The position numbers were made by a program, and so were the translations under genes. Positions 1 to 19,900 of a stretch of DNA of 64,000 nt are shown here, one piece after another. The stretch spans positions 50,493,762-50,557,761 of the forward strand of contig NC_053042.1 of the NCBI RefSeq assembly GCF_003473485.1. Direction: 5' to 3'. This DNA is from Medicago truncatula. Lineage: Eukaryota > Streptophyta > Magnoliopsida > Fabales > Fabaceae. The notes under the pieces were generated by a model. It worked only from the letters and a program-made list of their open reading frames with translations. It had not been told where the DNA came from and did not search any database. Positions within the stretch are counted from its first letter, which is position 1, and every line of letters starts with the position of its first letter.

Positions 1-180
1 CAAAGACAACATATCAAGTTTAGGAACACGTAGTTCTTCTTGTCTTAAGTAAAATTTTCAAAATCTTATTTTAGCTAGAAGACACAGTTCCCTCGATTTC
101 AAGCTAAAGGTTGAGTCATCCACATAATCAACTCGAGTGGAACTTTTTATGTGCAATTTAATTTCATAGACTTATGGTTC
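1..180 (+). repeat. Promoter-distal repeat of lipid-transfer gene 1
   Basis: This stretch is nearly the same as 6301-6480, with only scattered substitutions, and is the distal promoter of the first lipid-transfer-like gene. A more diverged copy precedes the third gene at about 15690-15830. The repeat shows that promoter and gene were duplicated together. The window edge cuts into it. The copy here is separated from its gene by two inserted transposons. Confidence 0.85.
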
Positions 181-495
181 TAAGAGCACAAGTTGGTATC
201 TTTTCTTGGCTACGGTTCCAAATTCTACCACTGTGTCTTAAAGCAATTCTTTCTCTTCCTCACACACATTTTGAAATAAATCAATTAAACAATAAATGAA
301 GATATTATTTACCATTATAATTGTTACCAACTACTTCATATTACCGTTCTTTGAATATTTTTATAACCGTTGCAACTTTTTCTTACCGTTGCACATATCT
401 CTGAAGATTTTATTTACCATTATAATTGTTACCAACACACTTTTTCTTCTTTAGTCAAAAAAACACACTTTTTCATCTAAACATTTCATTTGCCA

Positions 496-810
496 ATGAA
501 CCCCAACCACAATAATTCTTGGTCCAACTACTTGCAAAATGGTGGCATTCCTCCATGCATCCAAAATCAACAAAATGTCTCCTACTTTGAAAATGCATCC
601 AATAACCCAAACTCACATCATAAATCAAATTTTCAAAATCATACTTTTATCCCAAATCCACACATTGGAAATTATCCATATCATACACCACCTTATTCAT
701 ACCACTATCAACATTTTTCATCTCAATCAACTAGTCCCACCATGTCTCATGAAGTTCAAATGAATAATAGTGGTGTCCAATTAAATGATCAAGAGATTGA
801 AACACCGCAA
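496..810 (+). pseudogene. Harbinger ORF1 N-terminal remnant
   Basis: An open frame starts at ATG 496 (MNPNHNNSW...) and encodes an Asn/Pro/His-rich low-complexity leader. This resembles the leader in front of the Myb/SANT-like domain in plant PIF/Harbinger accessory proteins. The Myb/SANT domain itself is absent: the sequence changes to transposase code near 810-820 in a different frame. The frame stays open to 894, but past the junction it is out of register with the transposase. The leader assignment rests on composition and position, not on a conserved motif. Confidence 0.5.
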
Positions 811-1429
811 CCTTGCACAAGACCTATGGATTTGGCACGCATTCTTTGGGGTAGCGGGTTCAAACAACGATATCAATGTGTTGAACCAATCTGATGTCTT
901 CAACAATGTTATGCAGGGGCGAGCTCCTGAGGTCCATTTTTCAGTTAATCGTACAGAATACAACATGGGGTATTATCTATCAGATGGCATTTATCCTGAA
1001 TGGGCAACATTTGTGAAAAGCATCCCAATGCCACAAGGGGATAAGAGAAAATTATTTGCCCAACACCAAGAAGGTGCTCGAAAGGATATCGAACGAGCGT
1101 TTGGAGTTCTCCAATCCCGATTTGCGATCATACGTAACCCAGCTCGATCTTGGCACTTGGATGCACTTAAACGTATAATGGGTAGGTGCATCATATTACA
1201 CAACATGATTGTTGAAGATAAACGTGCAACATATGGTGGAACCTTTGATTATTCTTATGATCATCTAGGCAATGGCCCGACTGCACCACCAGATGATTCT
1301 AATAATGATTTTCAAGAGTTCTTGCGTAGAAGACACAATGTTCGCGATAAGCAAATTCATCGACAACTTCAACAAGACTTAATAGAACATATATGGAAAC
1401 ATTTTGGGCATGAGAATATTCACATCTAG
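785..1429 (+). pseudogene. Harbinger DDE transposase, C-terminal half
   Basis: The 214-codon frame encodes the C-terminal half of a plant HARBI1/ALP1-like transposase (DDE_Tnp_4). Recognisable blocks are DLWIWHAFFG followed by GSNNDINVL, which carries the second catalytic Asp, then YYLSDGIYPEWATFVK, ERAFGVLQSRFAI, which carries the catalytic Glu, and the C-terminal CIILHNMIVEDKR. The N-terminal half with the helix-turn-helix and the first catalytic Asp is missing, so it cannot be a working transposase. The listed ATG at 785 lies before the junction, and the first conserved residues begin near 821. The frame from there to the stop is uninterrupted, which suggests a fairly young deletion derivative. 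Confidence 0.85.
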
Positions 1430-1942
1430 AAATTATTTTAAATGTTGATGTATTTTTTTAACGTTTATGTTTTTTTTTTTAATTTTGTGCTAGTAGTTTA
1501 TTTTAACGTTTATGTGTTTTTTAGCGTATTTTCATATAACTTATTTGTGTCAAGTAGTACGTTATTTAATATATTTTTATTTGATTTTATTTATTTTTTG
1601 GATATTTTAATTCATTTTGAGTATATTGTGAGATACATTTTATATATTTTGATTATACATTTTATATATTAATGTAAAATATAATTTGAAATATATTGTA
1701 AGATTAGTGGGACCCATTATAAGTTTTGTAAGAATGGTATGGATGTTTAGAAAATGTAGTTGAGTGGTTTAAATAATTGAAAAGTGTGAAGTAATATAAA
1801 GTATTACTGGGACCCATTTATACCACCCATGTAGAGTGGCATGGATGTGGGTGCTCTAACCAGCTTCCACTTTTAAATTTTTTGTACTTCACCCACGTAA
1901 TAACCTTCCTTCTCTTTCTCCATATTTATCTATTTATTTTAT

Positions 1943-2432
1943 GGTTTAATTGCACTTTTCCCCCCTATAGTTTGCCAATTGTGCGATTTTGCACTCCATA
2001 GTTTTAAACGAGCGATTTTGCCCCCTATAGTTTTCCCCCTTTCTGATTTTATGGTACCCATGACATTTAGTGTTGATTTTTTATCAATTAATGTGTGCCA
2101 CGTGTGTAATTCCATTTTTTTAAAAATAAAAAAATGGTATTTTTAGATTTTGAGAGAAGGGGGCACGTGATTTTTCAGATTTTAAGAAGAAATATCACGT
2201 GCCTCCTTCTCTCAAAATCTGAAAAATACAATTTTTTTTATTTTTTTAAAAATGGAATTACACACGTGACACACATTAATTGATAAAAAACAGACATTTC
2301 AGCACTAAATGTCATGGGGACCATAAAATCAAAAAGGGGGAAAACTATAGGGGGCAAAATCGCTCGTTTAAAACTATGGGGTGCAAAATTGCACAATTGG
2401 CAAACTATAGGAGGAAAAAGTGCAATTAAGCC
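1943..2432. mobile_element. Mutator-type foldback MITE in promoter
   Basis: This 490-bp element is almost entirely inverted repeat. The left arm starts GGTTTAATTGCACTTTTCCC and the right arm, reversed, starts GGCTTAATTGCACTTTTTCC; the arms match for roughly 200 bp. A perfect 9-bp target duplication TTATTTTAT (1934-1942 and 2433-2441) fits the Mutator superfamily. It has no coding capacity. It sits about 18 bp upstream of the TATA box of lipid-transfer gene 1. Confidence 0.9.
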
Positions 2433-2449
2433 TTATTTTATTTTATTTC

Positions 2450-2459
2450 CCTATAAAAA
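2450..2459 (+). promoter_or_regulatory. TATA box of lipid-transfer gene 1
   Basis: CCTATAAAAAGC lies about 65 bp before the ATG at 2522. It is conserved in sequence and distance in all three paralogues (about 6727 and 15905 in the others). Confidence 0.7.
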
Positions 2460-2521
2460 GCAATCTTAGCTATAGCTATAGTAAATCAATCACAAGGCAA
2501 AATTTCATTAAAAAATTTCCA

Positions 2522-3280
2522 ATGGCACTAGTAAAATTGACTATGGGTCTTGTTTTTGTTACATTAACTTTGCTCTGTGCAGGTGTTACGGCACAATCAA
2601 ATTGCACGGATGCGTTAATGAGTTTGATGCCATGCCTAGGCTACGTCAGGGGGAACTCACCAACACCAACTGCAGGGTGCTGCACACAACTTGCTAATGT
2701 TGTGAAATCACAACCAGAATGCCTCTGCCTGATTATTGGCAGCGATTTAGGATCATCACTAGGGATCAACAAAACTCTAGCTCTTGCCTTACCTGCCGCT
2801 TGCAATGTGGAGACCCCACCCGTCAGTCAATGCGAAAGTATGTCATCAAAATTGAATTTGACTATAATATATAATTGATTTTGACATGTTTAATGTATAT
2901 TTAAATTTGCGATGTCAGTTCACTCCAAGTCATTGAAACTTTGGTTAAAACTACTATTTATATCTTCAACAAAATTACTATGTTGTTTGATTTTGCTAAA
3001 ATTGGTTGATTTTATAATTGATTGCTTCAATAAATGGACAATTGAAGAAAATGAAAAATAGCTCTAACATAAGTGCATGCACGACATTCATATTTTTCTG
3101 CTAATTAATTTACCCCTTCTTGTGTGTATAGCAGTAGCCAATCCACCAGCTGGATCCAGAACCGTGCCACCAACAGCTGGTGGCTCGTCGGGGGTAAATT
3201 CTGATAGCAAGATGGGGCAACCTGAACCAAGGAGGAAGATCCATAAGCCATTTTGGCTAAAGGATTTCCATTTAAAATAA
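2522..3280 (+). CDS. Lipid-transfer-like protein, GPI signal lost
   Basis: Exons are 2522-2837 and 3135-3280, with a 297-bp GT-AG intron, giving 153 aa. Residues 1-24 are a signal peptide. The eight-cysteine lipid-transfer fold follows, complete, with the order C, C, CC, CxC, C, C and a CLC core. The family is xylogen-type/LTPG non-specific lipid-transfer-like (At2g13820-like), which binds lipids at the cell surface and is normally GPI-anchored. The start is the first ATG after the conserved TATA. Exon 2 follows its paralogues up to about 3209, then changes to a charged tail ending RRKIHKPFWLKDF and a stop. The hydrophobic GPI-attachment end is gone, because a gypsy LTR begins there. The product, if made, would probably be secreted and not anchored. 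It may be a decaying gene: two transposons also occupy its promoter. Confidence 0.8.
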
Positions 3281-4450
3281 ACCAAGTATCTTTATGTTGT
3301 CTTTTTAGTGGACTCTTTAGCAATCAAGTGGCCAAGGCCCATATGTAATAAGACTATGGCCCATATGAAGGGTAAACTTAAGTATTTAAAGGATGTAACT
3401 TCTCACTCACATGTGTGGTAATGATAAACCTAGTGCATTTTTATTTGGTTAAATGCATCTAAAGGTCCTTTAAGTTTTTCGTTTTTCTCAAAGTCGTCCT
3501 TTAAGTTTCAAAAGACTCAAACAAGTCCTTTTAATTTTTGAATCGTTTCAAACAAGTCCTTTTAGTTTTTGAATCGTTTCAAACAAGTCCTTTTAGAGGA
3601 TGATGGTGATGATTTAGATGATAGCAACAAAGAGCATTATCCACCATTTGTCATGCCTAAAAAGATGACTAATTTTAAGTGGGTGTTAGGAGCCAGATTT
3701 GGTACCAAAGATGAGTTCAAGGAAGCAATTACCAATTATGCTATCTACAATAGGACTTGTTTGAAACGATTCAAAAACTAAAAAGACTTGTTTGGGACTT
3801 TTGAAACTTAAAGGACGAGTTTGGGAAAAAGGAAAAACTTAAAGGACCTTTAGATGTATTTGACCTTTTTATTTTATATTTTCTCTTTCTGTCGTTTTCT
3901 TTCTTTTCTTCCTAGTATAACTTGATTGATAGGTAGTTACCGAACTTATCATCATTGGTGCTTTCATTCCCTTTCCCAATGCCTCCCAAACTAACCAACC
4001 CCACCACCCCTTGAGACTTGGACGATGCAATCCACTCTACAAACCAACGCCTTGATGAACTTATCCAAACAAAATAGCAGAATATACAAGTTGTGATCGG
4101 TGCAACCACACACACCTTCAACACCCGACTTGATAACCAAGATTCATCATGGATTCACGGTTTGCCAACCTCACAAGCATGCTCAATGAACGATTCGCAA
4201 CTCTCGCCGCTCAAAACAACCCCACATCATCAACAACAACCATAACACCATCACCTAGACCAACTTAAGACTCCGTTACCACAACAAACCCAAACCTCAC
4301 CTCACTTCGAGTTTCTCTTCCCAATACCCTCATACACTCTTGCCCTAGCCAGCCAACAATCAACCCAACTTGATACCAACCAACACCACCGTTTTCCATC
4401 ATTGGTAACTATTACCAAACCCCACCCCATGGTTATTCCCCAGAGCCCCT
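3210..4450 (+). mobile_element. Ty3/gypsy fossil: 5' LTR and gag start
   Basis: Homology between lipid-transfer gene 1 and its paralogues stops at about 3209, and a sequence beginning TGATAGCAAG takes over. I read 3210 to about 3952 as an LTR, interrupted by the Mutator-type insertion at 3447-3865. It is followed by a primer-binding-like stretch (ATTGGTGC) near 3953 and a gag-like leader region from about 3979 to 4450. The copy is truncated and clearly broken, with no pol region here. The first bases of the LTR encode a short basic peptide like a gypsy polyprotein C-terminus, fitting families whose last frame runs into the 3' LTR. It is old, but younger than the gene duplication. Confidence 0.55.
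3447..3865. mobile_element. Mutator-type element with transposase scrap
   Basis: Inverted terminal repeats of about 110 bp (left end GGTTAAATGCATCTAAAGG, right end reversed GGTCAAATACATCTAAAGG) are flanked by a perfect 9-bp duplication TTTTTATTT (3438-3446, 3866-3874). Between them, 3595-3760 reads DDGDDLDDSNKEHY... then FGTKDEFKEAITNYAIYN. This matches the N-terminal DNA-binding region of MuDR-type transposases (DBD_Tnp_Mut). The piece is only about 55 codons, so the 419-bp element is non-autonomous. It landed inside the gypsy LTR next to it. Confidence 0.8.
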
Positions 4451-6300
4451 AAACTATAACTCAAATTGTTTATTATTAATCATTAATTACTTTTTATTAA
4501 AACTGCCATTATTTACATTGAAAATTAGCATCTCAAATGGGACACATAATATAATATGGTTAAATGAGACTAATGTTTTGTATGGTTGATAAAAGAATGT
4601 GAAAGGAATGAATGTAAAAGGAATAAAAGTGAGTAAAAGATAGAAAGAAGGTGCAATGATTTTTTTATTGTTTGCGATGAGCAAAAGTGAAAAGAAATTG
4701 AAAGAAAATAAAGATGTATATTTAATAAATGACATAAATACCCCTACAATGATAAATGTGGTGAGAGTACTAATCATGTAAGTACAACTTAGTTGATAGC
4801 TAAAAAGATAATATTAGACATGGGTTGGAGATTGAACTCCAGACTTCAAACTTCTCCGCATTTAAAATGTGTGAATTACACCCACCACTAAGTTATTTGA
4901 CAAAATATTTAATGAGGTGTGAGAAGCAAGTAATAATTGGAGTAAAGAAAAACACTTGTACGTGAAGAAAAAAAATAAAAGCAAGGGCACTTTGGTCCTT
5001 TTATAAGATAATAAGTTCATTCTCTTGTTTCCTCGCATTGTTGATGGAAAGCATTTTTCTAGGAGGGCCACCTCAACCGATCTTTCCTTTCATCATATAG
5101 GAGAACCTGATGACACATATTTTGATAAACATTCCCTTAAGCTACTTTTCGTCGTGGCACATTCCTATGAAACAAACAACTCCTAAAAGTTATAAAAATA
5201 CAAGTAAAACGAAAATGTCTTTACATATATACTCCTTTCAAAATAAAGTATAAGTAAAAGTCGCAGTTGAAAAATTAATGTATGCGATTAAAAAATTTGT
5301 CTACATATACACCACTTTTCAACGATCATTTTTACTCATTTCATTTCGAAAGAAGTACGGTAGTTCATGATATTTTAATTTTAGTTTCTTTCTTTCATTA
5401 TTTAGATAAAATTATATTCTTTAAATGTATTCAACTGATGACGAAACTATATTTTATGAGTTTATAGAAAAAGGGCAACACTAAGTGTTATGCACGGTAG
5501 GTTTAGGTGATTCTCTACCGACAATGAATTGGTACAAGCGGTACTTGAACCCCTTAAAGGAATGGTTAGGAGTTCAATTCTTATCTTTTTGGATATAAAA
5601 ATATATAAGGTTAGAAGTGGGGAATCTACTTTGTGTGTTCCACATGTTCCTCTATGGAGATTATCCAATGACGATGATGAAGACAGCACCTGCGATGATG
5701 AAGACATACCCACTCTTTGGCTAAACTTTTATCGACGACATCATTTCCTTTCTCCCGTTCTTCCTGCCAACGCCGAAACAACTTCTTGTCGTCGTTTATC
5801 CCTGGAGAAGCTCATGGTTGACGGTAGTGAATAATATTTGACGGTGTTGTTGTTTTCACTGTCGTCATTTTTGTTGTTTCCGGTAAGGCCATGTTGGAGA
5901 AGTTGTTTTCTCCCGTGTTCTGCCTTTCTTTGTTTTCACATAGGGTTGAATTTACCATGGGAAAGGTGAAAACTTTCCTACCATAGAAAAACTAATTTTA
6001 ACCATTAGATTAAATAAAGAACACATTTTTATCATACATCCACACCACAAGATTTGTTTCCATACCTTCTTTCACCAACATCGTTTTCTCAATTTATGTA
6101 GCACTGTAAGTTAGCTTTTTCATACCTTCTTCCACCACCTCTCCTCTTTGAATTGAAACATTATCAGCAAGTTTAAATTGTTGAACATCCCTCACCTATA
6201 TATCAATATTATATCTAGCTGTAATCAATGGGCTGAAAAAGTGTGACATCACAATATTGTTTCCATCCCAAAAATTTATCATGCATTGATTTCCAATTTC
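4451..6300. other. Intergenic spacer between genes 1 and 2
   Basis: The stretch is AT-rich and holds a SINE at 4786-4902. Otherwise I see no gene. The open frame at about 5529-5834 begins at a non-ATG codon, has no recognisable domain and is not supported. The last 60 bp (from about 6240) align loosely with 14680-14745 upstream of gene 3, so the duplicated block may start there. Confidence 0.6.
4786..4902 (+). mobile_element. tRNA-derived SINE (legume family)
   Basis: The head reads CTTAGTTGATAGC (box A-like), then GGAGATTGAACTCC (box B-like), then a tail with TTCTCCGCATTTAAAATGTG and a closing CACTAAGTTATTTGAC. The same architecture recurs on the opposite strand at 45904-46026. The copy is diverged. 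Confidence 0.6.
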
Positions 6301-6550
6301 CAAAGACAACATATCAAGTTTAGCAACACGTATTTCTTCTTGTCTTAATTAAATTTTTCAAACTCTCGTTCTAGCTGGAAGACACAGTTCCCTCAATTTC
6401 ATGCTAAAGGTTGAGTCATCCACATAATCAACTCGAGTGAAATTTTTCATGTGCAATTTAATTTCATAGACCTGTGGTTCTAGCCAACTTCCACGTTCAC
6501 CCACGTAATAACCTTCCTTCTCTTTCAACGTATTTATCTATTTATTTCAT
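6301..6550 (+). promoter_or_regulatory. Promoter repeat of lipid-transfer gene 2
   Basis: This is the second copy of the 1-180 repeat and continues through the site that is empty of the Harbinger element (about 6478-6485). It preserves the pre-insertion arrangement of the promoter and so dates both promoter insertions of gene 1 after the duplication. Confidence 0.8.
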
Positions 6551-6711
6551 AGGTATGGTTAACGACGGTCCCCATAACACTTTTTAAGGATTCTATAAAA
6601 AAAAAAATCGTAAAAAAATCAATTATTTCAATTTCCAATATGTTGATTATACAAATTTTCACAAAAAATTACCATTTAAAGATCTTAAAGAGTGCTTTAA
6701 CATTTCCCTTA
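6551..6711. mobile_element. Short MITE next to the TATA box of gene 2
   Basis: About 160 bp with imperfect inverted ends: the left reads GTATGGTTAACGACGG...AACACTTTTTAAG, the right reversed reads GGGAAATGTTAAAGCACTCTTTAAG. It has no coding capacity. It lies between CTATTTATTTCAT and TTATTTTATTTTATTTCCCTA, the same promoter point where gene 1 carries the 490-bp foldback. The superfamily is uncertain because the target duplication is not clear. Related ends occur at 8196-8374, 8614 and 10605. Confidence 0.6.
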
Positions 6712-6797
6712 TTTTATTTTATTTCCCTATAAAAAGCAAGCATAGTTATAACGACAGGAAATAAATCACAAAGCAAAGTTTCACTGAAAGATTTCCA

Positions 6798-7725
6798 ATG
6801 GCACAAGTAAAATTCAATATAGGTCTTGTTTTGGTTACATTAACCTTGCTCTATGCAAGTGGTACGGCACAATCAAGTTGCACGAATGAGATAGCGAGTC
6901 TCTTATCGTGCCTAGATTACGTCACCGGGAACTCATCAGCACCAACTATAGGGTGTTGCACACAACTTGCTAATGTTGTGAAATCACAACCAGAATGTCT
7001 TTGCTTGATTATTGGCGGGAAAGGATCATCACTGGGGATTAACCAAACCCTAGCTCTTGCCTTACCTGCTGCTTGCAATGTGCAGACCCCACCCGTCAGT
7101 CTATGCAAAAGTATGTCATTAAGACTGAATTTGTTTATAATGTATAATTGATTTTGACATGTTTTCTTTATATTTAAATTACTAGTATGTTGTTTGATTT
7201 TGCCAAAATTGGTTGATTTTAAATTGATTGCTTCAACAAAATCTTCGATGAATTGAAGTAATATTGCCTTCTAAATTGATTATAATTTGAAGTTAGAATT
7301 TGATGTTTAACAAAATATATTATTATTATTATTATTATCAAAAGTAAGTTTTTGTCACCGGAAAAAGTAAAACAAACACCAAAACATATTAGGCAAATAA
7401 TATTAACTCTTTTCGGTCTAACCATGGCCAATACATGAACATTGAAGAAAATGAAAAATAGCTCTAACATCATTAACATAAGTGCATGCACTTCATTCAT
7501 ATTTTTCTGCTAATTAATTTACCCCTTCTTGTGTGTATATCAGTAGCCAATCCACCAGCTGGATCCAGAACCGTGCCACTAACAGACAGTGGCTCATCCG
7601 GGGGAAATTCCGTCAAGCTATCAACCCCTATGTTGTTCGTTACTTTTGCAGCAACATATATATGCTTCAACTTCCAGGACATACTGGCTTATTGTTTTTT
7701 TCGTTCATATAGATCTCCCATTTAG
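6798..7725 (+). CDS. Xylogen-type lipid-transfer-like protein, extended
   Basis: Exons are 6798-7110 and 7544-7725 with a 433-bp intron, giving 164 aa. A signal peptide covers about residues 1-24 (ending GTAQS). The complete eight-cysteine lipid-transfer domain includes C-x9-C, GCC and CLC. A Ser/Gly/Pro-rich linker (NPPAGSRTVP) follows, then a hydrophobic end, [21 protein letters not shown], like a GPI-attachment signal. Gene 3 stops after that Tyr. Here the stop codon reads TGT and translation runs ten residues further (CFFRSYRSPI). The polar, arginine-bearing addition could weaken GPI attachment, which needs a hydrophobic end. Predicted role: lipid-binding protein at the plasma membrane/cell wall. 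A MITE sits just 5' of the TATA box (about 6727). Confidence 0.85.
7318..7339 (+). repeat. (TTA)n microsatellite in intron of gene 2
   Basis: There are about seven ATT/TTA units in the intron of lipid-transfer gene 2. Confidence 0.9.
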
Positions 7726-7977
7726 TTTCTTCTAATATATTCAGTTTTGTGACCGCAAGATATTTGGTTGTGCAGTGTTGCATTGTGTGGTCTTGTGAGA
7801 AACATTGATGTAGAACTGTGCAGTTTCTTCTCAATAATACTATTGAATCGAGCGAGAAAAATATCAATTATATTTAAAATTAAGAGAGTGAGAAAATTTA
7901 CTACACATAAAATATTAATTATCTTCTTCATCATCATGTATTGATGTAATCACGGCTACAGTAAATATATAATAAAA

Positions 7978-8105
7978 TCACTATTTATAAGTAAAAAACT
8001 ACATTTTAGATTTATTCATTAAATGATCTATGTGGTCTTTATTATAAACCACGTACATCATTTAATGAATAAATCTAAAATGTAGTTTTTTGCTAATAAT
8101 AGTGA
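7978..8105. repeat. 128-bp near-perfect hairpin
   Basis: Two arms of about 58 bp (7978-8035 and 8048-8105) are inverted copies with only a few mismatches; the arms include ACTACATTTTAGATTTATTC and its complement. The loop is only about 12 bp. It is probably a small MITE, but a transcript would fold into a long hairpin. Confidence 0.8.
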
Positions 8106-8143
8106 CCGGATGGTGTATATATTAACTTGATATGACGAAGGTA

Positions 8144-8604
8144 CTCTCTCCGGTTTTGAATATAAGCAACAACAAAAAATAACACCTTTTATAAAGGAAA
8201 AATATTAACTAATGTTCCCTGGACACTCTTTAAAGACTATAAGTAGTAAGTATTTATGAAAAAACGTGTAATCAATGCGGTGAAAATTAAAACATTTAAC
8301 TTTTTTAAAAATAATTGTTTATTTTATAATGCTTAAAGAGTATCTCAGGAGCACTCGTTAACAAAAACCCTTTAAAAAAATTAGTTGATATCATTTATTT
8401 CTTTCAAAATTATAAAGGATACAATTATACTTTTTAAATGATCCTTCATGAGAACTTGTTCCATGAAAAGAAAAGAAAAATCACATTAATTGATGTGTAA
8501 TTTTGGAATAATAATATTAAATATGATACAAGTAGTTGATATTTGCTTATATTTAAGCCCATTAATTTTTTTGTTCTGTTATTATATTCAAGACAAGAAG
8601 AGAG
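8144..8604. mobile_element. Stowaway-like MITE with nested MITE
   Basis: The ends CTCTCTCCGGTTTTGAATATA and, reversed, CTCTCTTCTTGTCTTGAATATA are flanked by TA on both sides, as in Tc1/mariner Stowaway elements. A second MITE of about 180 bp (8196-8374; ends GGAAAAATATTAACTAATG and, reversed, GGGTTTTTGTTAACGAG) lies inside it. This explains the unusual total length of 461 bp. Confidence 0.65.
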
Positions 8605-8605
8605 T

Positions 8606-9950
8606 AATATTAAGGGAAATGCTAACAAGTGCCCTTAAGGACAGTTGTTAAAAAGACTAAAGAAAGCAATTTGTTTAGAATTAATGCATTCAACACATTG
8701 AAACTTGAAAAAGTAACTTATAATTTAAAATCAAGTAATTAATATTATCTTATCTTAAAAATGAAAAATGAGATCATTCATTTTCTAACAAGTATTAATA
8801 GTAAGTCAGTGTAAAACGGAGGAGTAAATACAAACTTTGTGTATACCATGCATGATCTCCATTTGTCATAAGGAAGCTCAGCCATTGCATGCAAAAATCA
8901 CTGGAAATGAGAAGTGATTAATTGTAGGACAAAGTCGTACAATGATGTCACTTGGCTAAGACGAACATACAATTTGGATGCTAATCAATAAGTATACGAA
9001 AAAATTTGAATTTCCAATGTGTGAAAATATTTTGCATACAAAAACATTGAATTTTTTTATTTATTTAATATTCAAATGTTCAAGCTAAATCATTTCTAAA
9101 TACAAAGTCACTAATAAATTGTGTCCGGACCATTTAATATGTTCTAGATCATTCAACCTCGTTTTGTGACATTAATGATGATTTAAGGTAGTTTTTCATA
9201 ATTTTAACTTAGAAATTTTTTCTTTCTTTAGATGCAAAACTCACCAACATAGTTAAGAGAATTCGACAAACAATTAAAATATTTTGATAACAATATACGG
9301 CTTTAACAGACTCGTGAATTTCAAATGTTGAAATCAACTTATTTGGCTAATATATTTTCAACACTTTCGATTAAAAAAAATATATATATCATTTGCATCA
9401 GCATCTAACACCTCCTTTTATAATTTAAGTTTTTTTCTTTTGGATAAATAATTTTTTTTTAAGCCAAAGTTTTAAATTTATTTTCTGGGTATACAAACGT
9501 TGTGATGCCATGCATGTCTCCATTTGTCACAAGGAAGCTCCGTCAATGCATTCAAGAAACACTAAATATGAGAAGTGATTAGTCATTACAAAGACAAAGG
9601 CGTACAATGACATATCAAGAAGCTAGACATAAATAAGCCACTGAATAATCAGCTTCAACGATTATTATGTGAACAATGATGTCAAAAAGCTAGACACAAG
9701 TACGTGAAAAATAGAGAAACTAATAAATATATATACTAAAGAGTCCACTTAGAAACACTTGTTAAAAATATTAATATAAAATAATATTATCTTAGAGAAA
9801 TGATGTACTTCTATTCAACTTTGTGGATGTTTAAAAACATCAATGTTATTGGAACGTAAAAATTATAGCACAAAATTGAGCTGTGTTATTAGCCAATGTC
9901 AACCCATCATTGACTAAATAAGTGTGAATTGTTAACTAATATTTTAACAT
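8606..9950. repeat. AT-rich spacer with diverged direct repeats
   Basis: No gene is seen. About 8845-8965 and about 9500-9620 are diverged direct repeats sharing CCATTTGTCA(T/C)AAGGAAGCTC and GAGAAGTGATTA. A third partial copy of the AATGATGTCA...AAGCTAGACA part follows at about 9673-9705. The 8614 end matches the nested MITE family at 8196. Confidence 0.6.
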
Positions 9951-16021: not shown

Positions 16022-17678
16022 ATGGCTCAAGTAAAAATAAGTAAGGGTCTTGTTTTGGTTATATTGGCCATGCTATGTGCAGATGCTATGGCACAATCAA
16101 GTTGCACGAATGTGTTAGTAAACCTATCACCATGTCTCGACTACATCACGGGGAAGTCTTCAACACCAACTTCAGGGTGTTGCACACAACTTGCAAGTGT
16201 TGTGAAATCACAACCACAATGCTTATGTCAAGTTCTTGATGGTGGAGGATCATCATTGGGGATCAAGGTTAATCAAACTCAAGCTCTTGCCTTGCCTTCT
16301 GCTTGCAATGTGCAAACTCCACCAACATCTCAGTGCAAAAGTAAGTCACCAACATTTCTTGTAAACTGATTTTTCTTCGAATTTGATAGACGAAAAATTA
16401 AATTTGAAGTTTTTGCTTTAACCATTGATTTTAAGTTTCAATCTTTTTTTTTAATGTAAATGCCAATCTTTTGTTCAACACAATTTTACATTAATTAATA
16501 AATTCAAATACAAATCATTTTATATCAAACTTACTTTTAACACGTCTGACTTTTGTTGTTCATTTACATTTTGGTTACTTGAGTTGGATCATGTAGTCCG
16601 GTGTAATGCTTTTATCTCCATAAATTTGTGAGGTTATCTATCAATAGTGTAACTTAGAGATGGATCTACTCTATAGATATTGAGGAGAGCTGACCCCACA
16701 ACTTCAATCTCTTGTTAACCAATATTATGATATTTTGATGTTATAAGCCCCAGCTCAAATAGTGTTATGTTCCCACAAAACCCTAATAAAAGCCTAAACA
16801 AACTAATACCATGTGGTTAAATTTTGGTATTGTGTATACTTTGAAAAATTAACGAACTTGCCCAATGGGATTAAAATGTTTTCAAATTTCAACCGAACCT
16901 ATTGTTGTTTCTTTGTGAAAAAGGAGAGAGAAATAGGTCAATGAAAGAGGTTCCAATTGGTAGCAAATACAATTAAAAAACGAACTTCTCACATACACCA
17001 CACCCACAATAAGAAATTAACACTAACCCCCTTCTATTTGTCTCCCTTCTAGTTTTTTTTTTTTGTGGTGATCGGAGTTTGAACCCCGATCATTGCATAT
17101 TTTATGCATTGTTATACCAATTAAGCTAAGTTCACGATGGTTGTATCCCTTCTAGTTGATAGAGAGTGATATATTTGATAATATTAAAAATAAAAATCTT
17201 ACAACTCTTTAAAAAAAAAATGAAGAAACATCTAAAACAACTATAATTCTTAGAATGTTAAGGTGTCTTTAATTTTTATTTATTCAATGCATTTTTTTTA
17301 ATCTTCAATATTTTACATAATGAAAATGATTGATGTTTTTGTTTTATCACTTGCCTTTATATCTAACTCTAAACTAAACCTAATGTGGGCATTTTGATCA
17401 AAAATAAAAAGTTTAATGTTGACTTAGAACTGAAAATAACTATAACATCACTAACCTAAAAGCATGCATGTTATTATAATTAATCTATATATCTTTATGC
17501 TAATTATCATCTTGTGTGCATATCAGCGGCAAATTCACCAGCTGGAGCCAGAACCGTGCCATCAACAGATGATGGGTCGTCCGATGGAAATTCCATCAAG
17601 TTATCAATTCCTAGGTTGTTCGTTGTTTTTGCAGCTACATATTTATGCTACAACTTTCAGGACATACTGGCATATTGA
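16022..17678 (+). CDS. Xylogen-type GPI-anchored lipid-transfer protein
   Basis: Exons are 16022-16340 and 17527-17678 with a 1186-bp intron, giving 156 aa. The signal peptide is residues 1-24 (ending DAMA, before QSSC). Spacing of the eight cysteines is C-x9-C-x14-CC-x12-C-L-C-x25-C-x9-C, as in LTPG/xylogen-like proteins (At2g13820-like). A Ser/Pro/Gly linker ([20 protein letters not shown]) gives candidate GPI attachment residues, and the last stretch ([14 protein letters not shown]...) is hydrophobic. It is the only array member with an intact canonical end and an uninterrupted promoter, so probably the functional reference. Predicted role: lipid binding at the outer plasma membrane or wall. 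The intron, longest of the three, holds a reversed SINE. Confidence 0.9.
17052..17136 (-). mobile_element. tRNA-like SINE head in gene 3 intron
   Basis: On the - strand it reads GTGAACTTAGCTTAATTGG (box A) and GGGGTTCAAACTCCGATCACC (box B), followed by a poly-A run (poly-T here at 17052-17064). It is a short SINE of tRNA origin. Confidence 0.7.
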
Positions 17679-18420
17679 TTATTTAATTCCTAGATCTTCC
17701 ATTTAGATTGTTATTTTCACTTGTTGAATTTGTGATACTAGATATTTATGCAATGTTGTGTGGTGTGAAACATGATTGAGTTCTGTAAAGAGAAAAATAA
17801 ATCGAAAGAAATATTGATTATATATTTAAATTTAAGAGAGTTAAAAAGGTTGATTACATTTTATTTTGGTCTGTTTGATTACATTTACTATATTAGTATA
17901 GGATAGACTTTATACTGATTATATATATTCATCATAACTATGGGGTTAGGTAAGTGTAACACAACTATTTTGAACTAAGTGATAAGAAATTGAAGGTCAT
18001 GAAAAATAAAAATAATATAACAACTAACTAACTAATCATATCTATCGCTTAGAAAAAACAATCACTTTTAGTTATAGTTGAAGTGTTGTAAATCTCATAC
18101 TTCTCCTTTTATGGCGGGCTAACATGATATCCGTCAAAATTTAAAAATAAAGTGTTTAATTATTTATTCACTAAAAAATGTAAAAACTATCAAAGAGTTA
18201 TTCAAGGTAATAAAAACACATCAGGACTGTGGCCGCATGGTTATTTTATGGTTACACTGTAGGCGGCAATGAGGCTGTCAACATATCCATTTACATTTTG
18301 TAGTTGATAAACTTTTGTTGGGGAAAAAGTTGGACAAATGAATAGCAATGAAAACTGTGCTTATTTTGTTTGAACTTCTTTTGGGACTAAAAGTGAATTT
18401 TGATAACAGTATGATGGTGG
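17679..18420. other. Spacer after gene 3
   Basis: AT-rich; I see no gene or clear element. Confidence 0.6.
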
Positions 18421-18429
18421 TGTTGAATG

Positions 18430-19900
18430 TATCAAATTCTTGATTAGTCGAGGTAGTCAATCTTCAATTGTAGAACTGGTAGTTTGCCCTTTGTGTACTT
18501 GGACCTACCAATTAGTGGTGATTCGCGGCGTTTACAGTTTTGGTATCCCTTGATTGATCGGATTAAAAAGAGACTATCATCGTGGAAAAGTAGACATTTA
18601 TCTACAAGGGGTCATTTTGTGTTGTTGAAATCTGTCATGTCCTCTTTACCGATCTATTTTCTCTCTTTCTTCAAGGCTCCCACATGTATCATTTCTTCGG
18701 TCGAATCTTTATTTATTTATTTTTTTGTGAGAGAAAATTAGGAAAATACAATGGATCAATTGAGATACGGTTTGTCTAGAAAAAGAGAATGGAGGTTTGG
18801 AGGTGCATAAGATTAGAGAACTTAATTTGGCATTGTATGGTAAGGAGTGTTGGAGGTTAGTTGTCGATCAAGATAGTTTATGGTTTAAGGTTTTGTCTGC
18901 TAGATACGGAATTGAAGAGGTAGGGTGAAAGAAGGGGGCAAATTAGGCTTAATTTGGTGGAATCAATTGGATGAGATTAGACGTAGGGATGAGTTGGCGA
19001 TGACCAAATGGTTTTATGATAATCTTGTGCGGGTCGTTGGTGATGGGACCATAACGTTTTTCTGGTCCAATGTGTAGCTTGGGGATGAAACACTATGTGT
19101 GAGGTATAGGAGATTATTTGAATTAGCAGAAAATAAAGAGGTGTTGGTGGGGGATATGGCAACTCTAGGGGGTGATGGTTGGAAGTGGCGGCGTCGCTTA
19201 TTTGCTTGGGATGAGAAGATTTAGGAACTAAGATTGTTGTACTCTTTTGGCTAATGTGGTTTTGCAAGATGTTGTGGAAGACTATTAGAGGTGGCAATTG
19301 TCGCCTGACAAAATTTATAATGTTTGAGGGGTGTATCAATTGTTGACGGCAGTGGTGGCTCCCAATCATGATGACATTCAAGATATAATTTGGAATAAAA
19401 CAGTTTCGTTAAAGGGTATAACTCTTGCGCGGCGACTTTTTAGAAACCATGCATATTGATACACAAGATAATCTTGTTACGTGTGAAATCCTCCAACATA
19501 ATTTAAATGTTGTATTGTTGGTTGTGGCCACCAAGAATAAATGTATCATTTGTTTTAGTGGTGCAATTTTTTTTGGCACCATTTGAATTCTAGTTTTGTA
19601 ATAGATTGGGTGTTTCTATGACGATTCCCTTTCACTTATCATATTTTGTTCTCCATTTTAGTTCGTTGTGTGGTTTTGTAAGAAGATTGAGGAATATCAT
19701 ACATCTTGTTTAATTAGCTTCAATTTGGATTGTTTGAAAAGAACACAAGTCTTGGTGTTTTGGACAAAAAAATTGAAATGTTACCAAAAATGCTTGATAG
19801 AATTAATTATTATTTTTTTGGATGAAAGCAAAATAATTTAGGGCATGCATTTGATCTAAATCATTGGTGGGTTAACCCTGTGTTGTATATGGGGGTAGCC
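18430..19900 (+). mobile_element. LINE remnant: RT end and zinc-binding region
   Basis: From 18484 the sequence reads FVYLDLPISGDSRRLQFWYPLIDRIKKRLSSWKSRHLS...LLKSVMSSLPIYFLSFFKAP, the C-terminal part of a plant non-LTR reverse transcriptase. Later blocks are ENGGLEVHKIRELNLALYGKECWR (about 18785-18855), a weakly kept WKWRRRLFAWDEK (about 19180) and a zinc-knuckle reverse-transcriptase tail (LVTCEILQHNLNVVLLVVATKNKCIICF-like, about 19465-19560). The end resembles IWIVWKEHKSWCFGQKN (about 19720). Endonuclease and the first half of the RT are absent (5' truncation). Stops occur, for example after VREN at 18739 and at the TAG near 19075, with several frame changes, so it is dead. Confidence 0.8.

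Follow-up and report, generated by a model that had tools for sequence, protein, structure and literature searches.

The C-terminus of gene 1, the first of three tandem lipid-transfer genes (beginning at 2522, 6798 and 16022) in a 64,000-nucleotide stretch of Medicago truncatula DNA (NC_053042.1, positions 50,493,762 to 50,557,761; hereafter, the window), is by sequence comparison supplied by the long terminal repeat (LTR) of a retrotransposon, at a junction that is exact to the base. In the account that we consider best, with a probability of roughly 0.75, a Ty3/gypsy element would have inserted in phase into exon 2, the distal sequence would then have been lost, and gene 1 would now be a decaying or marginal duplicate (Table 1).

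Table 1. Features of the window that bear on the origin of the gene 1 C-terminus
Feature	Positions	Strand	Remarks
PIF/Harbinger-type element	184..1856	+	GAGCAC...GTGCTC, TAA duplication (ends by eye); upstream of gene 1
Second palindromic MITE	1943..2432		inverted arms 91% in nested MITE, 93% here; 90 bp before gene 1 ATG
Gene 1 exon 1	2522..2837	+	signal peptide and eight-cysteine lipid-transfer domain; open frame
Gene 1 intron	2838..3134	+	GT at 2838, AG before 3135; from sequence and alignment with genes 2 and 3
Gene 1 exon 2, host-derived part	3135..3201	+	Pro/Ser/Gly-rich linker; gene 2 match stops at 3201
Gene 1 exon 2, LTR-derived coding tail	3202..3280	+	third base of Ser codon, 25 codons (DSKMGQPEPRRKIHKPFWLKDFHLK), TAA
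5' LTR, first piece	3202..3446	+	begins TGATAGC; carries TATTTAAA, also in C3 LTRs
Nested palindromic MITE, MULE type	3447..3865		inverted arms 91%
5' LTR, second piece	3875..3954	+	ends ATCA (end by alignment); 77% to C3 copy b over 3867-3966
Element internal region, start	3955..4438	+	about 480 bp, 73% to two C3 elements; truncated at 4438
Gene 2 tandem-duplicate unit, start	4701..6300		homologous to gene 1 upstream sequence; 87-93% to L028:7777-10000
Gene 2	6798..7725	+	exons 6798-7110 and 7544-7725; 164 aa; closest paralogue of gene 1
Gene 3	16022..17678	+	exons 16022-16340 and 17527-17678; 156 aa

The spliced frame of gene 1 encodes 153 residues and closes with the TAA at 3278-3280, its last 25 full codons lying inside the LTR. 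Exon 1 is 64% identical to gene 3, and the Pfam matches of the spliced protein, LTP_2 (6.5e-18) and Tryp_alpha_amyl (2.2e-15), both fall on the lipid-transfer part, where the cysteines follow the order C, C, CC, CXC, C, C; the frame, the splice sites and all eight cysteines are intact, in agreement with the first-pass annotation, which had called the eight-cysteine fold perfect. Genes 1 and 2 align without gaps over the 111 bases from 3091 to 3201 at 93% identity, and the match to the LTR begins at the very next base, which corresponds to base 1 of one related LTR (C3 copy b, beginning TGATAG) and to base 3 of the fragment of another (C3 copy a, beginning AATGATAG), such that the end of the homology to gene 2 and the start of the LTR coincide to the base. 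This match, over 3202-3390, is missed at the default word size and is found with shorter words. The earlier claim that a retroelement LTR provides the end of the protein is thus upheld by both the DNA match and the tail peptide, which itself matches the C3 LTRs; the switch that had been placed at about 3209 is real and its exact position is 3202. No remnant of the original 3' end of gene 1 was found between 3202 and 6300 when the gene 2 region 6291-9000 was compared with window positions 1-6300 and the gene 3 region 17400-19500 with 3200-6300, and a further search with 7500-8800 against the window and locus L028 gave nothing past 3201 in gene 1. The intron acceptor of gene 1 (3130-3135) is a tandem NAGNAG (TAGCAG; TATCAG in gene 2), and a one-residue alternative is possible.

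The element itself is a Ty3/gypsy LTR retrotransposon, the 5' LTR of which (TGATAGCAAG...ATCA) is complete, with TG...CA ends and 245 + 80 = 325 bp in two pieces. The pieces are separated by a palindromic MITE that is flanked on both sides by a 9-bp duplication (TTTTTATTT; 3438-3446 and 3866-3874, as read by eye) and that has at least 39 other copies at 92-95% identity among the best 40 of 588 candidates scored; similar 9-bp duplications are readable at several of nine aligned copies. The LTR was correctly named as the source in the first-pass annotation, and the inserted sequence is more than an LTR alone, comprising the 5' LTR together with some 480 bp of the internal region, split by the later MITE. 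No second (3') LTR was found in the whole window, and no target-site duplication is readable at the window copy, whose 3' end is missing; only one LTR being left, dating by the LTR pair is impossible. The nested MITE offers a rough substitute, a loose minimum age: in an alignment with 9 of its 39 other copies, it has 3 private changes at 335 sites where those copies are unanimous and at least 6 of them have a letter, and the copies themselves have 3 to 9 such changes each. Downstream of the truncated element, 4440-4548 had no other match in a genome search with 4400-4720, and 4549-4720 is a repeat present in at least 39 other places at 70-80% identity (best 40 of 51 candidates scored). The boundary of the gene 2 duplicate unit lies in or beside this repeat.

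The origin of the tail can be traced further, to the coding sequence of the element. When the genome was searched with the tail peptide, 14 places were recovered at E up to 10, namely, gene 1 and 13 others, of which four are the LTR pairs of two C3 elements. This search revealed the LTR family and disposed of the impression that the tail was nearly unique, which came from DNA searches with 3135-3460 and 3200-3450 that gave a single short place outside the lipid-transfer cluster, on C8 (87% over 62 bp). The members of each C3 pair are 5.1 kb apart, 316 bp long in both elements (counted from the sequence) and, in their aligned parts, 98.4% and 97.6% identical; the two elements are flanked by the 5-bp target-site duplications GTGAA and GTATG. 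In both, the copy of the peptide in the 3' LTR ends a long pol frame, of 393 and 467 aa, and the gene 1 tail is 68% identical to the ends of these frames over 25 aa. The pol order RT, RNase H, integrase is present in the relatives, the window copy being truncated before pol: the L029 frame matches RVT_1 and RT_RNaseH, and the L030 frame matches Integrase_H2C2, SH3_Tf2-1 and, below its cut-off, rve. The 467-aa frame carries integrase domains according to Pfam, and no chromodomain family is among its Pfam matches. In the two relatives, the end of pol and its stop, ...DSKLEQPGPKRQTHKPFWLKDFHF, are encoded by roughly the first 76 bases of the LTR. Given that the pol ORF enters the 3' LTR in both relatives, the 25-residue tail of gene 1 is, as judged by this comparison, the C-terminus of the element integrase, read in its native frame. 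Read in the phase used in gene 1, the window LTR stays open for 25 codons; of the two other phases, one closes immediately (TGA TAG) and the other after 18 codons.

The nine other places (L019-L027) are more diverged and LTR-like by peptide; seven of them (L019-L022, L024-L026) also match the DNA of the window element, whereas L023 and L027 match by peptide only. Most keep the peptide type, one having an internal stop, and this persistence suggests that such an ending is a lasting property of the element lineage. Judged without gene annotation, no lipid-transfer gene other than gene 1 itself was recognized among the 14 places in this genome, nor was any host gene recognized in frame upstream of the L019-L027 tails; the first-pass annotation had said that a tail homologous to ordinary lipid-transfer genes would be fatal to its own claim, and no such homology emerged in this genome. 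At L011 (C8:36811584-36811644), a 62-bp piece of this LTR start, 87% identical to the window and closer to it than the C3 elements are, adjoins an apparent methylesterase exon (by eye) on the opposite strand.

The consequences for the protein are those of an exchange of its C-terminal signal. The best 15-residue Kyte-Doolittle mean within the last 45 residues is -0.19 in gene 1 as against 1.64 to 2.25 in three other tails, and the last 26 residues of gene 1 bear a net charge of +4; by the hydropathy count only, these 45 residues contain no hydrophobic stretch and hence nothing that resembles a C-terminal GPI signal. The proposal that a basic peptide has replaced a GPI-type end is accordingly supported by the sequence, and it is well supported that gene 1 has lost its anchor signal. 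If the protein is made, it would have a signal peptide, a lipid-transfer domain and no hydrophobic anchor signal, and would probably be secreted. The further proposal, of a change from a membrane-anchored to a secreted protein, holds as far as the loss of the signal goes; that a working anchor was given up is not established, since the products of genes 2 and 3 themselves extend past the hydrophobic stretch. The best-scoring paralogue beyond the cluster, C5, which is 76% identical to gene 3, ends with ...LFLILAAAYASVF before its stop, the hydrophobic tail being LSIPLFLILAAAYASVF. In gene 3, the stop that matches that of C5 is replaced, and the frame runs on as ...NFQDILAY, ending 10 residues past the best hydrophobic 15; gene 2, which lacks the stop of gene 3 in its second exon, is 10 residues longer and ends 16 residues past the best hydrophobic 15. 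Relative to the C5 paralogue, then, genes 2 and 3 have altered GPI-type ends, and a weakening of the anchor signal in the cluster may have preceded its loss from gene 1.

These extensions are one ground for a companion reading, which does not exclude the insertion account and to which we give somewhat less than even odds, namely, that the loss of the tail matters little, the cluster having already been losing its GPI signal. A slightly better fit of relaxed selection when the branch preceding the split of genes 1 and 2 is included (see below) points the same way. Against this, genes 2 and 3 keep the hydrophobic stretch, with best means of 1.70 and 1.64, and short extensions may be tolerated; moreover, a single canonical paralogue tail has been examined in detail, and its ancestral state is inferred. 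Two side observations concern other members of the family. In the paralogue at C5:1160495 (L054), there is an apparent extra intron in the linker (by eye); in genes 1-3, exon 2 is a single, merged and shorter exon, which suggests intron loss or a deletion. A gene 3-like copy at C1:47698461 (L059), 79% identical over 83 aa, has a frame that leaves the family inside the cysteine domain and is probably a pseudogene.

The pattern of substitution is compatible with weak constraint on the duplicates. The pairwise dN/dS of genes 1 and 2 is 0.75 (dS 0.198), and the other five pairs among genes 1, 2, 3 and C5 give 0.18 to 0.39 (dS 0.56 to 1.18); the remaining 9 of the 15 pairs were not used, four having undefined dS and five dS values of 1.39 to 4.39. 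In a maximum likelihood branch model on a six-gene tree, the branches of genes 1 and 2 have a dN/dS of 0.80 over a background of 0.21 (LRT 13.2, p = 0.0003), and 0.80 is indistinguishable from 1 (p = 0.52). Taken alone, the gene 1 branch gives 1.83 (p = 0.45 versus 1) and the gene 2 branch 0.45 (p = 0.15 versus 1), separate values for the two branches bringing no significant gain in fit (p = 0.19). Adding the branch before the split fits slightly better with an equal number of parameters (0.69 versus 0.17; logL -1666.5 versus -1668.4), so that the relaxation may predate the insertion. All these values are rough, coming from 104 to 112 codons, our own implementation of the branch model and an assumed tree. 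In simulations with an indel rate of 0.067 per substitution, derived from the flank alignments (11 gap openings, 165 mismatches), the open frame survives with a frequency of 0.12 (at 0.05 substitutions per nucleotide) or 0.02 (at 0.10) if gene 1 has been neutral since the duplication, and of 0.68 if neutral only for 0.009; given the low survival under full neutrality, some constraint on gene 1 is likely for part of its history. The aligned flanks of genes 1 and 2 differ by about 9% (105, 35, 5, 16 and 4 mismatches in 1175, 302, 67, 182 and 55 bases), leaving out two short inverted matches and the matches that include exon sequence or lie inside the intron, and the insertion is younger than the split of the two genes.

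The region upstream of gene 1 has likewise been invaded. The PIF/Harbinger-type element contains an ORF (785-1429) that matches Plant_tran (1.7e-70) and is absent upstream of gene 2, the homology between the two genes being interrupted between 182 and 1888. The upstream MITE is flanked, as read by eye, by the 9-bp duplication TTATTTTAT (1934-1942 and 2433-2441), has at least 80 matches on both strands (best 40 of 368 candidates scored) and ends about 20 bp before the TATA-like CTATAAAAAG; the upstream region of gene 2 also departs from that of gene 3 just before the TATA-like box. The two upstream transposons would fit a gene 1 that is poorly expressed or silenced.

Where the first-pass annotation had left a choice between neofunctionalization and early decay, these data favor decay or relaxed constraint, with dN/dS near 1, the 3' end missing and transposons upstream, and they are still compatible with a working gene. 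Neofunctionalization would mean that gene 1 is expressed and its product secreted, with the basic, integrase-derived tail put to use, for example, in binding acidic wall polymers or lipids. The intactness of the frame, splice sites and cysteines speaks for such a role, as does the value of 1.83 on the gene 1 branch, a point against the decay account since it would also fit adaptive change; this value, however, does not differ from 1. The 79 coding bases are also closer to the four C3 LTRs (61-63/79 identical) than is the rest of that LTR piece (97-99/165), but this contrast is inflated by the poor alignment of the end of the piece, and the conservation of the tail is expected from its role in pol, constraint on which suffices to explain it with no need for a function in gene 1. 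The two upstream insertions, the failure to find the gene's own 3' end, and a relaxation that extends to gene 2 and perhaps to the branch of the shared ancestor weigh further against a new function, which we regard as unlikely; relaxed drift or decay would be likelier. A broader conjecture, that the element lineage carries a ready-made C-terminus, that gene 1 is a working secreted protein made in this way and that other host genes may share the tail, strikes us as decidedly improbable.

The simplest order of events would be duplication, insertion and distal loss. Tandem duplication would first have produced genes 1 and 2; the Ty3/gypsy element would then have entered exon 2 of gene 1 in the sense orientation and, as the alignment indicates, in the one of three phases that meets the coding frame of the element. 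Gene 1 would thereby have come to read straight into the start of the LTR, which encodes the C-terminus of pol and its stop, acquiring a ready-made basic tail of 25 residues. The rest of the element, along with the end of gene 1 that held the GPI signal and its 3' flank, would subsequently have been lost, probably by deletion, as their absence implies; the MITE would have split the LTR after the insertion, and gene 1 is most likely under relaxed constraint, to judge from dN/dS and the upstream transposons. That the tandem duplication itself made the fusion, the duplicate being broken in exon 2 and meeting a resident retroelement by chance, would account for the missing 3' half of gene 1 and for the nearby duplicate-unit boundary at 4701, but is highly improbable, since the junction coincides with base 1 of a complete LTR, as expected of integrase-mediated insertion and unlikely for a random break. 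The best reading of the fusion is that an element with a coding LTR start happened to insert in phase into a host duplicate that was already weakly constrained.

Gene 1 thus offers a base-exact example of how an LTR with a coding start can exchange the C-terminus of a protein in a single step, in this case by stripping a lipid-transfer protein of its membrane-anchor end. Should gene 1 be expressed, it would represent a possible change of localization brought about by a transposon and, if not, a clear snapshot of a decaying duplicate. The idea that LTRs with coding starts are pre-adapted as donors of C-termini is open to testing wherever a genome contains elements of this sort; if it is true, a sense-oriented insertion would, in one phase out of three, provide the host gene with a tidy new end.

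Among the open-access titles listed in our searches, none concerned this gene or an LTR-derived tail of a lipid-transfer protein; both transposon exonization and pol ORFs that reach the 3' LTR are already known kinds of phenomena. A gag-pol ORF reaching into the 3' LTR is described for plant chromoviruses, namely, for CRM group A (PMC3059260) and for Beetle7 and Bingo1-4 and 7 of Beta (PMC3605345). The elements discussed here resemble these chromoviruses in that the start of the 3' LTR encodes the integrase C-terminus (in two frames here), and differ from them in that the tail is a short basic peptide of the KPFWLKDF type, with no chromodomain family among the Pfam matches. With respect to the host gene, gene 1 resembles type LTPg (PMC5052319) in its signal peptide (by eye), eight-cysteine domain, post-domain intron and Pro/Ser-rich linker like that of its paralogues; unlike the GPI-anchored LTPg described there, it has an element-derived tail of 25 residues in place of the hydrophobic C-terminal signal. 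Finally, as in the exonized transposable elements within coding sequences that are covered in PMC2203978, where element-derived exons are said to have low coding potential on average, element sequence lies within a host exon; unlike the exons of that account, the piece captured by gene 1 was already coding in the element and is still read in its native frame.
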